Shown here: one piece after another, positions 41,343 through 45,346 of the stretch | Numbering within the stretch: position 1 is the stretch's first letter | Layout: every line of letters begins with the position of its first letter | NCBI RefSeq assembly: GCF_019968905.1 | Contig: NZ_CP079946.1 | Coordinates: 4,650,001-4,714,000 of the forward strand | Origin: Corallococcus sp. EGB | GTDB lineage: Bacteria; Myxococcota; Myxococcia; Myxococcales; Myxococcaceae | DNA: 64,000 bases | Direction: 5' to 3' | Program-made: the position numbers and the translations under genes | The notes under the pieces: model-generated | The model's input: only the letters and a program-made list of their open reading frames with translations | Told to the model about the DNA's origin: nothing | Database searches by the model: none

Positions 41343-41360
41343 AATTCGCTTTCACGAATT
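41343..41360. promoter_or_regulatory. Inverted repeat upstream of the FHA-GGDEF gene
   Basis: AATTCG (41343-41348) and CGAATT (41355-41360) form a 6-base inverted repeat with 6 bases between, an AT-rich island 26 bases before the ATG. It could be an operator or part of a promoter; no clear -35/-10 pair is visible. Confidence 0.35.
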
Positions 41361-41385
41361 GCGCGGTGATACGTTTGGAGCCGTC

Positions 41386-42264
41386 ATGGGCCAGAAGGAG
41401 ACGGTCGTCACCGTCATCTCGAAGATCTCCGAGCGCCCCGTCAACCTGGACGCGGCGCTGGTGGTCATCTACGGCCTGGACCTGGGGCGCAAGTACGACC
41501 TGTCGCGTGAGGAGACGCTGATCGGCCGGTCGTCCAAGGCGGACATCCAGATTGATCAGGAGGCGGTGAGCCGCAACCACGCGCGCATCACCAACACCAC
41601 CAAGGGCGTGCGCATCGAGGACCTGGGGTCCACCAACGGCACGTTCGTCAACGACGACGTCGCGTCCACGGTGCGGTCGCTGCAGAACGGCGACCTGGTG
41701 AAGATTGGCCGCACCATCTTCAAGTTCATCGCGGGCGGCAACATCGAGGCGGCGTACCACGACGAGATCTACCGGCTGACCACGATGGACGGCCTCACGC
41801 AGATCTACAACCGCCGCTACTTCGACGAGCAGGTGGACCGGGAGATCTCCCGCAGCCGCCGCTACGAGCGCGTGCTGTCGCTGGTGATGTTCGACCTGGA
41901 TCACTTCAAGGAAGTGAACGACACCTACGGGCACCTGGCGGGGGACTCGGTGCTCAAGCAGCTGGCGTCCACCGTGCGCACGCGCATCCGCCGCGAGGAC
42001 GTCTTCGCCCGCTATGGCGGTGAGGAGTTCGCGCTGCTCTTGCCGGAGATCAACCTGGCTGGCGCGCGTCAGCTCGCGGAGAAGGTGCGCAAGCTGGTGG
42101 AGCGGCAGCGCTTCGAGTTCGACAAGCAGGTCATCCCCGTCACGCTGTCCGTGGGCGTGGCCACGCTGGAGCCGCACCACCGCGAGCCCGCGGAGCTGGT
42201 GCGCGCCGCGGACGAGCGCCTCTTCGAGGCGAAGAGCCAGGGGCGCAACCGCGTCTGCGGCTGA
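41386..42264 (+). CDS. FHA-GGDEF diguanylate cyclase
   Basis: The ATG at 41386 gives 292 residues. An N-terminal FHA domain (about 35-110) has [20 protein letters not shown] and [12 protein letters not shown], the phosphothreonine-binding signature. A GGDEF domain follows (about 135-292): [29 protein letters not shown], and active site [11 protein letters not shown]. An allosteric I-site RRED sits five residues upstream, so product inhibition by c-di-GMP is expected. It couples a phospho-threonine signal to c-di-GMP synthesis. It converges on the PlsC gene. Confidence 0.93.
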
Positions 42265-42293: not shown

Positions 42294-44378
42294 TCAGCCC
42301 GTGAACACGGAGCGGCGCTCGCGCAGCAGGGCCTGGAGCATGCTCTGGATGGACTCGCGGGTGCGCTCGGTGAGCCGCTGCACCTCGCCCAGGTCGTCCG
42401 CGGCCTCCTGCGGCAGGCCGTCCATGGTCAGCGGCTCGCCGAAGCGGATGGTCCACTTGGCGGGCAGCGGGCCGGGCGCGGTGAGCGGCAGCGACGGGAA
42501 CCCGAGGAAGCCCCCGGGGATGCGGCCCAGCAGCGGGGACGTCTCCTCCGCGCCCACGATGGCCACCGGGACGATGGGAGCGCCGGTGCGCAGGGCCAGC
42601 TTCACGAAGCCGCCGCGGCCGAAGCGCTTGAGGCGGTAGCGCTCCGCGAACGGCTTGCTCGCGCCCTGGTAGCCCTCCGGGAAGACGACGAGCGGGCGGC
42701 GCTCATCCAGCAGCCGCAGCGCGTTCTCCGGCGAGGCGCGCACGGCGCCCAGGCGGTTGAAGAGCGTGCCGAGCATGGGCGCGTGGAAGACCTGATCCTC
42801 CACCAGCCAGCGGGCCTCCAGCAGATCCGGGCGCTCTCGCAGCAGCGCCTGGGCCATCACGAGGCCGTCGTAGGGCAGGGCGCCGGAGTGGTTGGCCACG
42901 AGGATGGCGGCGCCGCGCGGCACCTGATCCACGCCCTCCACGGAGACGCGCCAGTACTGCTCGTAGAGGAAGTCGAGGACGGGCTGGAGGTTCTCCACCA
43001 GCTCCGCGTCCTTGCCGTAGTCGTCCAGCCGGCTGCCGCCGCCGGTGCCCAGGCTGGTGCGCACGGCCTCCACCAGTCCGTGCATGGCGCTCACCGCGCG
43101 GCCCAGGCCCTCGCTCGCGAGCGCCTGACCGGCGATCTCCTTCGCCAGGGAGAGCACGCCCGCGGCGCGGCCCGCGAAGCCGGGGGCCGGCGCGGATTCC
43201 TCCGGACCCTCGACGGTGGGCTCCTCCCGCTCCGGTGCCTCCTCGCGGGGGGCCTCGCCGGGTTCGTTCACGAGCGAAAGCGGCCGGCGGCTGGGTGGCA
43301 GCTCGTCGTGGGACTCGTCGGGCAGCTCCACCTCCGGCTCCACATCCGTGGCGGCGGCTCCCTCGATGAGGGAGACGGAGATGTGCACGCCGTCCTCTTC
43401 GACGCGCTCGACGCCGGTGCGCAGGTCGTCGTCCTCGTCGGACGCCCCTGGCGTGGGCAGGCCCTCCGGGTCACGGCGCCAGGCATCGGCGGTCCAGACG
43501 TCTCCGGGCTCCTCGGGGGGAGGCGGCACGTCCTTCGGATCCCGGCGCCAGGCGTCCGCGGTCCAGACCTCGTCCTCGTCGGCGTCGCGATCCTCCGCGG
43601 AGGAGTGGGTTCGCTCCTCGGGGTTCGGGGAGTGGCGGTCCAGCACCTCGTCCACGGCGACGCCCGCGGTGGCCTCGGCCACCTGGGTCGCGACGGCGGT
43701 GGCGACCTCCCGCTCGGGGCCATCGGCGTTGCCGTCGTCCAGCACCTGCTTCACGGCGGACTCAGCCAGCTCCGCGACCATCTCCGTCGCGAGCACGCGC
43801 TCGATTTCGCGGTCCGGGGTCTGGCGCCCCTCGAACAGCTCATCCACGGCCGTCTTCGCGGCGGCCTCCGCTGCGTCCGAGGCGAGCGCCTCCGTCAGGG
43901 CGCGATCCACCTTGCGCTCCTGAGGGAGCGCGCCTTGCGCCTCGTCCGCGAGCACCTGGGGCCGGGACGGACCGGGCCCGGCGGCGGGGCCCGGCGTGGA
44001 GGGCTCTCGCAGCGGAGCGGTCTCTTCACTGGGAGCGTGCGGCGCCTGGGCGCGGGTGTCCTGCTCGTGCGTCGCGCCCCCGCGCCCGTTCGCGCGGGCC
44101 TCGAACTTGTGGACCTTGGCGGCGGGCGTCCTCGGCATCGCAGGCGCGGCCTGCTTCGTCTCCGCGGCCTTGCCACCCTTCGGGGCCTTCGCCTGCGCGC
44201 CGGACTTCGACGCGCCGCCCTTCGCGGCCTTCGCCTTGCTCGCGGACTTCGCGCCCTTGCCGGACTTCGGCGACGCGGACTTCTTCGCGGCTTTCTCGGC
44301 CGCGTCGTCCTTCACCTCGCCCGTGCGAGGCGCGGCACCCCGCTGGAAGGGATCATTCCCGAGGACACCCTTGGTCAT
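42294..44378 (-). CDS. Lysophospholipid acyltransferase (PlsC-like) with long repeat-bearing N-terminus
   Basis: A 694-residue protein. Residues 480-690 are the acyltransferase domain: ILVANHSGALPYDGLVMAQA, a variant with H-x6-D in place of the usual H-x4-D, then VFPEGYQGASKPFAERYRL. The first 470 residues are not found in ordinary PlsC: a Lys/Ala-rich basic segment (20-80), three 33-residue repeats (157-255), an acidic stretch with two copies of VWTADAWRRDP, and helices. The ATG overlaps the stop of the upstream SDR gene as ATGA. The N-terminus probably scaffolds or localises the enzyme. Confidence 0.82.
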   Translation of the reverse strand: MTKGVLGNDPFQRGAAPRTGEVKDDAAEKAAKKSASPKSGKGAKSASKAKAAKGGASKSGAQAKAPKGGKAAETKQAAPAMPRTPAAKVHKFEARANGRGGATHEQDTRAQAPHAPSEETAPLREPSTPGPAAGPGPSRPQVLADEAQGALPQERKVDRALTEALASDAAEAAAKTAVDELFEGRQTPDREIERVLATEMVAELAESAVKQVLDDGNADGPEREVATAVATQVAEATAGVAVDEVLDRHSPNPEERTHSSAEDRDADEDEVWTADAWRRDPKDVPPPPEEPGDVWTADAWRRDPEGLPTPGASDEDDDLRTGVERVEEDGVHISVSLIEGAAATDVEPEVELPDESHDELPPSRRPLSLVNEPGEAPREEAPEREEPTVEGPEESAPAPGFAGRAAGVLSLAKEIAGQALASEGLGRAVSAMHGLVEAVRTSLGTGGGSRLDDYGKDAELVENLQPVLDFLYEQYWRVSVEGVDQVPRGAAILVANHSGALPYDGLVMAQALLRERPDLLEARWLVEDQVFHAPMLGTLFNRLGAVRASPENALRLLDERRPLVVFPEGYQGASKPFAERYRLKRFGRGGFVKLALRTGAPIVPVAIVGAEETSPLLGRIPGGFLGFPSLPLTAPGPLPAKWTIRFGEPLTMDGLPQEAADDLGEVQRLTERTRESIQSMLQALLRERRSVFTG
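43467..43568 (-). repeat. Duplicated VWTADAWRRDP motif in the PlsC-like protein
   Basis: Residues 271-281 and 294-304 are identical (VWTADAWRRDP), separated by a Pro/Glu-rich spacer, and the DNA of the two copies is also nearly identical, suggesting a recent duplication. The motif is Trp-rich, unlike the surrounding disordered sequence, and may be a short binding element. Confidence 0.7.
43614..43910 (-). repeat. Three tandem 33-residue repeats inside the PlsC-like protein
   Basis: Residues 157-189, 190-222 and 223-255 are equal-length, alignable units, beginning VDRALTEALASD, REIERVLATEMV and REVATAVATQVA, and each ending in an acidic or Pro-rich turn. All three are helical in character. 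Exact equal length across diverged sequence indicates repeat expansion under structural constraint. Confidence 0.7.
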
Positions 44379-45346
44379 GACTGGCTCCTTCTGAGCGCCG
44401 AGGCGGCGTCCCTGACGTGGTGGAGGGGCACGAACCCCAGCGCGGACTCGGCGCGCTCCCCGTCCGCGACCCAGGAGTAATGCATGTAGTCGAGCAGGGC
44501 CACCGGCAACGTGCTCGCCCCTACCGCCCCGAGCGCGCGAAGTGCAGCACGAAACAACGGCCCCGGCAGGGGGAGGGGTCGTGCGCCCGCCTGGCGGATG
44601 AGCCCCGACAGTGGCAGCACCCCGCGCCCGACGATGTTGAAGTCCCCGGCGGCCTCCGCCCGCAGGGCCAGGTGCAGCGCCCGGCCCGCGTCCTCTTCAT
44701 GCACCGCCTGCCAGAGCGGGTCGAATCCCAGGAGCGTGGGCACGACCGCGTGCGACAGCAACCGCGTCGCCGGATTGTCCAGGCTGGGGCCGAGCAGGGG
44801 CGCGAACCGCAGCACCAGCGTGCGCGTGTCCGGGTGCCGCTCGCGGAACGCGCGCACCTGGCCCTCCACCTCCACCTTGTCGTTGACGAACCGGCTGTTG
44901 GGACAGCCGAACAGCGGCGAGCCCTCACGCAGGAGCGCCGGGTTGTTGCCCCGCGCGCCGTACGTCACGGTCAGCGACGGCACCACCAGCCTCGGCAGAC
45001 GGGCGCGGCCCACCGCCGTCAGCACGTTCATGGTGCCAATCACTTCCAGCTCGTGCGCCAGCGGGCCGTTGAGGATGGGCCCGAAGAGGAACGCCAGGTG
45101 GAAGAGGGCGTCCACGGGGCGCTCGGTGAGCGCGTCCGTCAGTTCCCCTTCCGCGTCGTAGCGGGTGAGGTCCACGCGGTGGAACTCCCCCTTGCTCATC
45201 CCCTGGGGCTCCTTCGTGTCCAGCACGAGGATGCTCTCCACGCCGGGATCGGCTTCCAGCCTCGGCAGCAGCAGCTTGCCGTAGTCGCCATTGGCGCCTG
45301 TCACCGCGATGCGCATCGGGCCCTTGCCTGCTTGGATCACTTCCAT
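44375..45346 (-). CDS. NAD-dependent epimerase/dehydratase (extended SDR) protein
   Basis: A 323-residue protein with the Rossmann motif AVTGANGDYGKLL (residues 13-25), VDALFHLAFLFGP and a V-shaped substrate domain. The classical YxxxK is not evident (segment VVPSLTVTYGARGNNPALLR), so catalysis is uncertain. Start ATG at 45346; ATG at 45316 (MRIAVTGANGDYG) is the more usual family start. Its stop overlaps the PlsC-like start, so both are co-translated; a sugar- or lipid-modifying role with that enzyme is inference. Confidence 0.78.
   Translation of the reverse strand: MEVIQAGKGPMRIAVTGANGDYGKLLLPRLEADPGVESILVLDTKEPQGMSKGEFHRVDLTRYDAEGELTDALTERPVDALFHLAFLFGPILNGPLAHELEVIGTMNVLTAVGRARLPRLVVPSLTVTYGARGNNPALLREGSPLFGCPNSRFVNDKVEVEGQVRAFRERHPDTRTLVLRFAPLLGPSLDNPATRLLSHAVVPTLLGFDPLWQAVHEEDAGRALHLALRAEAAGDFNIVGRGVLPLSGLIRQAGARPLPLPGPLFRAALRALGAVGASTLPVALLDYMHYSWVADGERAESALGFVPLHHVRDAASALRRSQS

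Follow-up and report, generated by a model that had tools for sequence, protein, structure and literature searches.

Across much of the phylum Myxococcota, the conserved N-terminal element of a PlsC-fold acyltransferase is a short tip, VLG[N/R]DPF, with a basic stretch behind it, and not the tandem repeats that had drawn the attention of the original prediction. The acyltransferase is encoded in the window analyzed here, a stretch of 64,000 nucleotides from Corallococcus sp. EGB (contig NZ_CP079946.1, positions 4,650,001 to 4,714,000). As a possible explanation, which we rate at a little under an even chance, we propose that the tip acts as a docking peptide and, together with a basic disordered tether, places a PlsC-fold membrane acyltransferase that is co-operonic with an SDR-type epimerase. 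We computed the architecture and conservation of the protein, the restriction of the tip to this gene among the searched genomes, the predicted disorder, helix bundle and fold, and the gene pair. The features in the window are as follows.

42294..44378, minus strand: gene of the 694-residue acyltransferase (a real ORF)
44325..44378, minus strand: N-terminal tip MTKGVLGNDPFQRGAAPR (core residues 1-11), from the homolog pattern, pN and genome searches
44079..44324, minus strand: Lys/Ala/Ser/Gly-rich basic tail, predicted disordered (net charge; pLDDT about 30)
43635..43925, minus strand: three-helix module with helices 152-181, 188-215 and 222-248, the repeats of the original prediction (alignment, AlphaFold2)
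43536..43568, minus strand: first VWTADAWRRDP motif, residues 271-281 (sequence)
43467..43499, minus strand: second VWTADAWRRDP motif, residues 294-304 (sequence)
43269..43307, minus strand: second conserved linear motif DELPPSRRPLSLV, residues 358-370 (pattern search of homologs)
43053..43175, minus strand: two predicted helices, 402-419 and 423-442, directly N-terminal to the catalytic domain (AlphaFold2)
42297..43034, minus strand: PlsC-fold acyltransferase domain (PF01553, 6.5e-16; Foldseek to 5kym, E 1.7e-5; VIA Z 15.1)
42867..42893, minus strand: active-site motif NHSGALPYD (HX6D), conserved in homologs as NH[SAG]GxxxxD
44375..45346, minus strand: NAD-dependent epimerase/dehydratase gene (PF01370, Pfam), co-directional and overlapping the acyltransferase start
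41359..42264, plus strand: FHA-GGDEF gene, convergent

The acyltransferase and its gene pair

The ATG of the acyltransferase gene and the stop codon of the epimerase gene upstream overlap in ATGA, AAGGAG is located 6 bases 5' of the ATG, and the acyltransferase gene is present in all 16 genomes of the genus, the present one included. The Pfam domain PF01553 at residues 477-607 scored 58.8 bits against a curated cut-off of 23, and was matched at E<=0.01 by 22 of 22 aligned members including the present protein. The DGAT2/DAGAT family (PF03982) was matched at E<=0.01 by 15 of the 22 (best 2.1e-6), and here the present protein scored 20, under the curated cut-off of 22. A search of the whole protein against PDB sequences gave no match at E<=1. 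The predicted model shares its catalytic fold with PlsC of T. maritima (5kym; Foldseek E 1.7e-5), on which VIA superposed 222 residues with an rmsd of 5.3 and Z 15.1, tied with human GPAT1 (8e4y, Z 14.3) and followed by 1iuq and 1k30 (both Z 13.8). The full-length AlphaFold2 model has low confidence, with a pTM of 0.43 and pLDDT <50 for 346 of 694 residues. The VIA alignment to T. maritima PlsC starts at residue 424, in the helix preceding the catalytic domain. In T. maritima PlsC, the helices ahead of the catalytic domain sit on the membrane. Seven plasmid records had a match, and among the five listed none covers 80% of the protein; a Nocardia stretch looked at along with these matches was without annotation.

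The motif NH[SAG]GxxxxD was found in 85 of 86 homologs, the remaining one having SHGGALPWD. While PMC10593935 describes HX4D, the motif also found in PlsC, for the glycerolipid acyltransferases, the present protein has HX6D, a long N-terminal extension, and a score of 27.4 bits for the NCBIfam AGP acyltransferase model TIGR00530, far below its cut-off of 102.95. With HX6D in place of HX4D, the protein belongs to a distinct subgroup of the PlsC-fold enzymes, in which LPA acyltransferase activity would be putative. The original prediction that this is not a normal PlsC architecture was correct: the protein has some 400 extra N-terminal residues with a tip, a basic tail and a helix module.

The catalytic domain was searched in 39 genomes of the family (33 had it at E<=1e-70) and in 58 genomes of the phylum (28 had it at E<=1e-55, 9 of these 28 belonging to the family), and extended loci were taken from 31 genomes of the family outside the genus and from 19 further phylum genomes. 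Within the taken stretch, 26 of 31 loci of the family and 16 of 19 further ones of the phylum have an epimerase match upstream, as do 14 of 20 loci outside the phylum, the latter with 33-39% identity. The actinobacterial pair in Tsukamurella (WP_068523816.1/WP_068740788.1) and in Streptomyces and Kitasatospora loci has the same epimerase-acyltransferase gene order, which in Tsukamurella is annotated. The actinobacterial acyltransferases are 41-48% identical to the present protein in the catalytic region and have HX6D in common with it, whereas their N-terminus is shorter and has its own conserved tip, AKVIP[IF] or, in Tsukamurella, AKVLQLP. The tip AKVIP[IF] (ARVIP in L058) was found in 14 of 20 loci outside the phylum, all actinobacterial (L043-L048, L050-L055, L058 and L059), and these are the same 14 loci that have the upstream epimerase. 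Among the actinobacterial homologs other than Tsukamurella, none matched the helix-module profile at E<=1.

Mycobacterial Rv0502 would be the expected counterpart of the actinobacterial member. Rv0502 is reported in PMC10593935 as a PlsC homolog that is not predicted to be required and whose conservation extends to M. smegmatis and M. leprae. The accessible portions of the literature searched contained no characterized activity of Rv0502.

In the phylum, mutL and the FHA-GGDEF gene are frequent neighbors of the gene pair. Judging from gene order, the M. xanthus ortholog of the acyltransferase would be MXAN_4028; MXAN_4026 is given as mutL in PMC5285347, and MXAN_4029 stands in a strain list of PMC4877007. 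No mention of MXAN_4025, MXAN_4027 or MXAN_4028 was found in the literature searched, and the acyltransferase was not found in the accessible parts of the literature on PlsC and lipid bodies in Myxococcus, on PlsC motifs, and on disordered myxobacterial acyltransferases.

The helical segments and Trp motifs

The original prediction described three tandem helical repeats of exactly 33 residues in the N-terminal part. Three mutually similar segments are indeed present, but the exact spacing is not: gapless matching is best at offsets of 35 or 31 from the first to the second segment, 33 or 29 from the second to the third, and 64 from the first to the third, and the predicted helix starts are spaced by 36 and 34 residues. 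Off-diagonal self-alignment of the 16-genome genus alignment gave a score of 86.8 for the three segments, a value attained in none of 300 column shuffles (maximum 56.6) and in none of 300 shuffles of four-column blocks (maximum 66.0), nulls that do not preserve helical periodicity as such. For the single sequence, the best lag score was 57, compared with a shuffle 99th percentile of 46 and a maximum of 57 (n=2000). Thus, at the level of sequence, internal similarity is clear in the 16-genome alignment, and less clear, though suggestive, in the single sequence alone.

Structure prediction, proposed earlier as a check of the repeats, returned the three helices listed above. When residues 146-254 were folded alone, the three helices had a mean pLDDT of 81.4 and a pTM of 0.74, with an alignment in which the orthologs are close relatives. 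A known fold or family was sought for the module, with nothing convincing in Pfam (for the sequence from the window, none above cut-off), PDB sequences (best profile E 0.33), Foldseek (best E 1.0) or VIA (Z up to 7.1, values common for helix bundles); the predicted module may be a common three-helix arrangement. Amphipathic membrane-binding repeats are not favored, since residues 151-250 are acidic (net -13) and their best hydrophobic moments (0.28-0.36) are below that of the pre-catalytic helices (0.46).

The presence of the repeat region in close relatives, at a constant length, had also been expected. This held within the genus, where the three segments and their spacing were constant in 16 of 16 genomes except for a one-residue insertion in L010, and largely failed outside it. 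At E<=1 the module profile had matches in 24 of 86 homologs, 16 of which are the genus members used to build the profile. Outside the genus there were 8 matches among 70 homologs, four of them strong (L092-L095, two genera, E 8.3e-33 to 9.7e-19) and four weak (L096-L099, two genera, E 0.00084 to 0.18). Since the profile is strong only in the genus and two further genera, the repeats are a lineage-specific module. The two identical VWTADAWRRDP motifs that had been pointed out in the protein are found at residues 271-281 and 294-304. With variants counted, 12 of 16 genus genomes have two copies and the other four have one; copies identical to each other over ten letters are seen in five of the 16 (L001, L004, L010, L011 and L012), and a variant of the motif is present in L092 and L093. 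On this distribution, both the repeats and the Trp motifs are classed as lineage-specific additions. A second linear motif, matched by the pattern DE[LFY]PP..PLSLV, was found in 21 of 86 homologs, all of the genera g1, g15, g16, g18 and g24.

The N-terminal tip and the basic tail

The deepest-conserved N-terminal feature is the tip VLGNDPF or VLGRDPF, which was absent from the original prediction. For the pattern [LM]GxDPF on the N-terminal side of the domain, the counts are 14 of 16 in the genus, 27 of 31 in other genera of the family, 11 of 19 among the further homologs of the phylum, and 0 of 20 outside the phylum. The total in the phylum is 52 of 66 homologs, and contig ends explain 5 of the 14 misses: both tip-less genus members and three tip-less family members are cut by contig ends. 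The other tip-less family member, L102, lacks GxDPF in every frame of its stretch, though L103 of the same genus has the tip. The tip of L148 is degenerate (LGSNPF) and was excluded from the counts. Because the residues after F11 are affected in L006 by a deletion immediately following it, the firm core of the tip is MTKGVLGNDPF. Within the genus, pN of the tip is 0 with gaps set aside. Its synonymous rate is also low (pS 0.066, compared with 0.17-0.39 elsewhere in the gene), so the mRNA around the start codon may account for part of the conservation, and the low synonymous variation in the tip codons is perhaps a translation-start signal.

The tip was further searched at the DNA level in whole genomes. 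The stringent pattern LG[..]DPFxR had exactly one match per genome in 10 of 10 genomes, always at the acyltransferase gene, and the reversed control had 2 matches across all 10 genomes. A looser pattern in four genomes gave 7 matches (reversed control 5), of which 4 were at the acyltransferase gene and 3 in G087, the latter within a frame of 534 residues or in frames 39 and 56 residues long. The 534-residue frame is taken by us to read like a 3-phosphoglycerate dehydrogenase. A role of the tip as a shared sorting signal was rejected for the genomes searched, in which the stringent pattern is private to the acyltransferase gene.

Such privacy would also be expected if the contact of the tip were internal to the operon, that is, if the tip folded onto its own acyltransferase domain or bound the epimerase to gate the enzyme, with the tail serving as an entropic leash. 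The conservation of the epimerase-acyltransferase gene pair fits this alternative, as does the coincidence, outside the phylum, of the 14 AKVIP/ARVIP loci with the 14 epimerase-bearing loci. However, within the phylum the link fails in both directions: three loci have the tip with no epimerase match in the taken stretch (L153, L157 and L158), and seven have the epimerase and no tip (L149, L154, L155, L156, L159, L161 and L162). The AlphaFold2 model places residues 1-8 at pLDDT <50, which counts weakly against docking onto the enzyme's own domain because the alignment is shallow, and the differences between tip-bearing and tip-lacking members at 15 epimerase columns and 10 catalytic-domain columns are confounded with phylum. 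We consider this operon-internal docking unlikely.

The product of the FHA-GGDEF gene was considered as the receptor for the tip. Among the further phylum loci, the gene was found nearby in nine of the 11 that have the tip and in none of the 8 that lack it, which favors a link, but the two groups are also different families; it was within the taken stretch in 15 of 31 family loci. No relative was matched at E<=1e-60 in the tip-bearing genomes G021, G036 and G084, and the matches in the tip-bearing genomes G023 and G066 are only about 50% identical. With a close relative missing from some tip-bearing genomes, an obligatory receptor role is not supported.

Behind the tip, the Lys/Ala-rich basic start of the original prediction was confirmed: residues 19-100 have 20 K+R and 6 D+E (net +14). 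In all 52 tip-bearing homologs, the 70 residues C-terminal to the tip are net positive (+1 to +16), a raw count that carries no background rate of basic N-termini in GC-rich genomes. Between the tip and the domain, the tip-bearing homologs have 72 to 594 variable residues. In L111, L112, L114 and L117, which belong to other genera of the family, the position of the tail is filled by H..SP-rich repeats with best self-match lags of 28-29.

The Lys/Ala-rich composition, and the net positive charge here and in the 52 homologs, speak for a histone-H1-like DNA- or granule-binding tail, in line with the earlier suggestion that the enzyme associates with the nucleoid or a polymer. Yet basicity by itself suits membrane binding equally, and it varies, whereas the more constant part of the N-terminus is the tip, which has a net charge of only +2. 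There would also be little evident reason for a lipid enzyme to be on DNA. We regard association with the nucleoid or a polymer as quite unlikely.

Within the genus, dN/dS is 0.59-0.98 in the basic tail and linkers, 0.28, 0.52 and 0.34 in the first, second and third helix segments, 0.41 in the Trp region, 0.225 in residues 326-370 (which include the second motif), 0.14 in the pre-catalytic helices (residues 409-448), and 0.11 in the catalytic domain. With 0.52 set against linkers of 0.59 and up, the second segment is constrained hardly more than the linkers. By these rates, constraint along the protein alternates, with conserved ends and a freely evolving linker. The high dN/dS of the basic tail and linkers is also what would be seen if the tail, repeats and Trp motifs were low-complexity sequence of little function that expands and contracts in a GC-rich genome; the different repeats at the same place in other genera (lags 28-29) and the single Trp copy in 4 of 16 genus members point the same way. 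Against this, the tip is invariant, the spacing of the helix module is near-constant in 16 of 16 genus genomes, and the second motif is conserved in 21 of 86 homologs, so that we find an account by low complexity for the N-terminal part improbable.

A proposed placement of the enzyme at the membrane

Conserved ends joined by a freely drifting linker have the look of a docking peptide on a tether, and the best available reading of the N-terminal part is that it would localize the enzyme. We infer the binding events, the localization and the substrate of the acyltransferase in the model that follows. The acyltransferase and the SDR-type epimerase/dehydratase would be made from one operon, the invariant tip VLG[N/R]DPF would dock on one specific protein partner, and the basic low-complexity stretch behind it would touch an anionic surface, either membrane or DNA. 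The remaining N-terminal part would be a flexible spacer that drifts in length and content; in Corallococcus and two further genera, the spacer would hold the compact three-helix module, which probably adds a surface for self-association or partner binding. As in T. maritima PlsC, the pre-catalytic helices probably lie on the membrane, where the enzyme would act.

A wider form of this proposal, which we offer as speculation and consider rather doubtful, is that in many Myxococcota a single-client docking peptide, VLG[N/R]DPF, recruits one acyltransferase to a receptor via a hypervariable basic tether, that the actinobacterial AKVIP tip is analogous, and that positioning of the gene pair's products is an old, undescribed control layer of lipid synthesis. 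The protein is a clear example of conserved ends flanking a linker that evolves freely, with the tandem repeats as its replaceable part rather than its functional core. The acyltransferase is conserved, and it is without characterization as far as the literature searched shows. Should the tip prove to be a docking peptide, it would provide a short, testable handle on the site of the acyltransferase in the myxobacterial cell and on what recruits it there.
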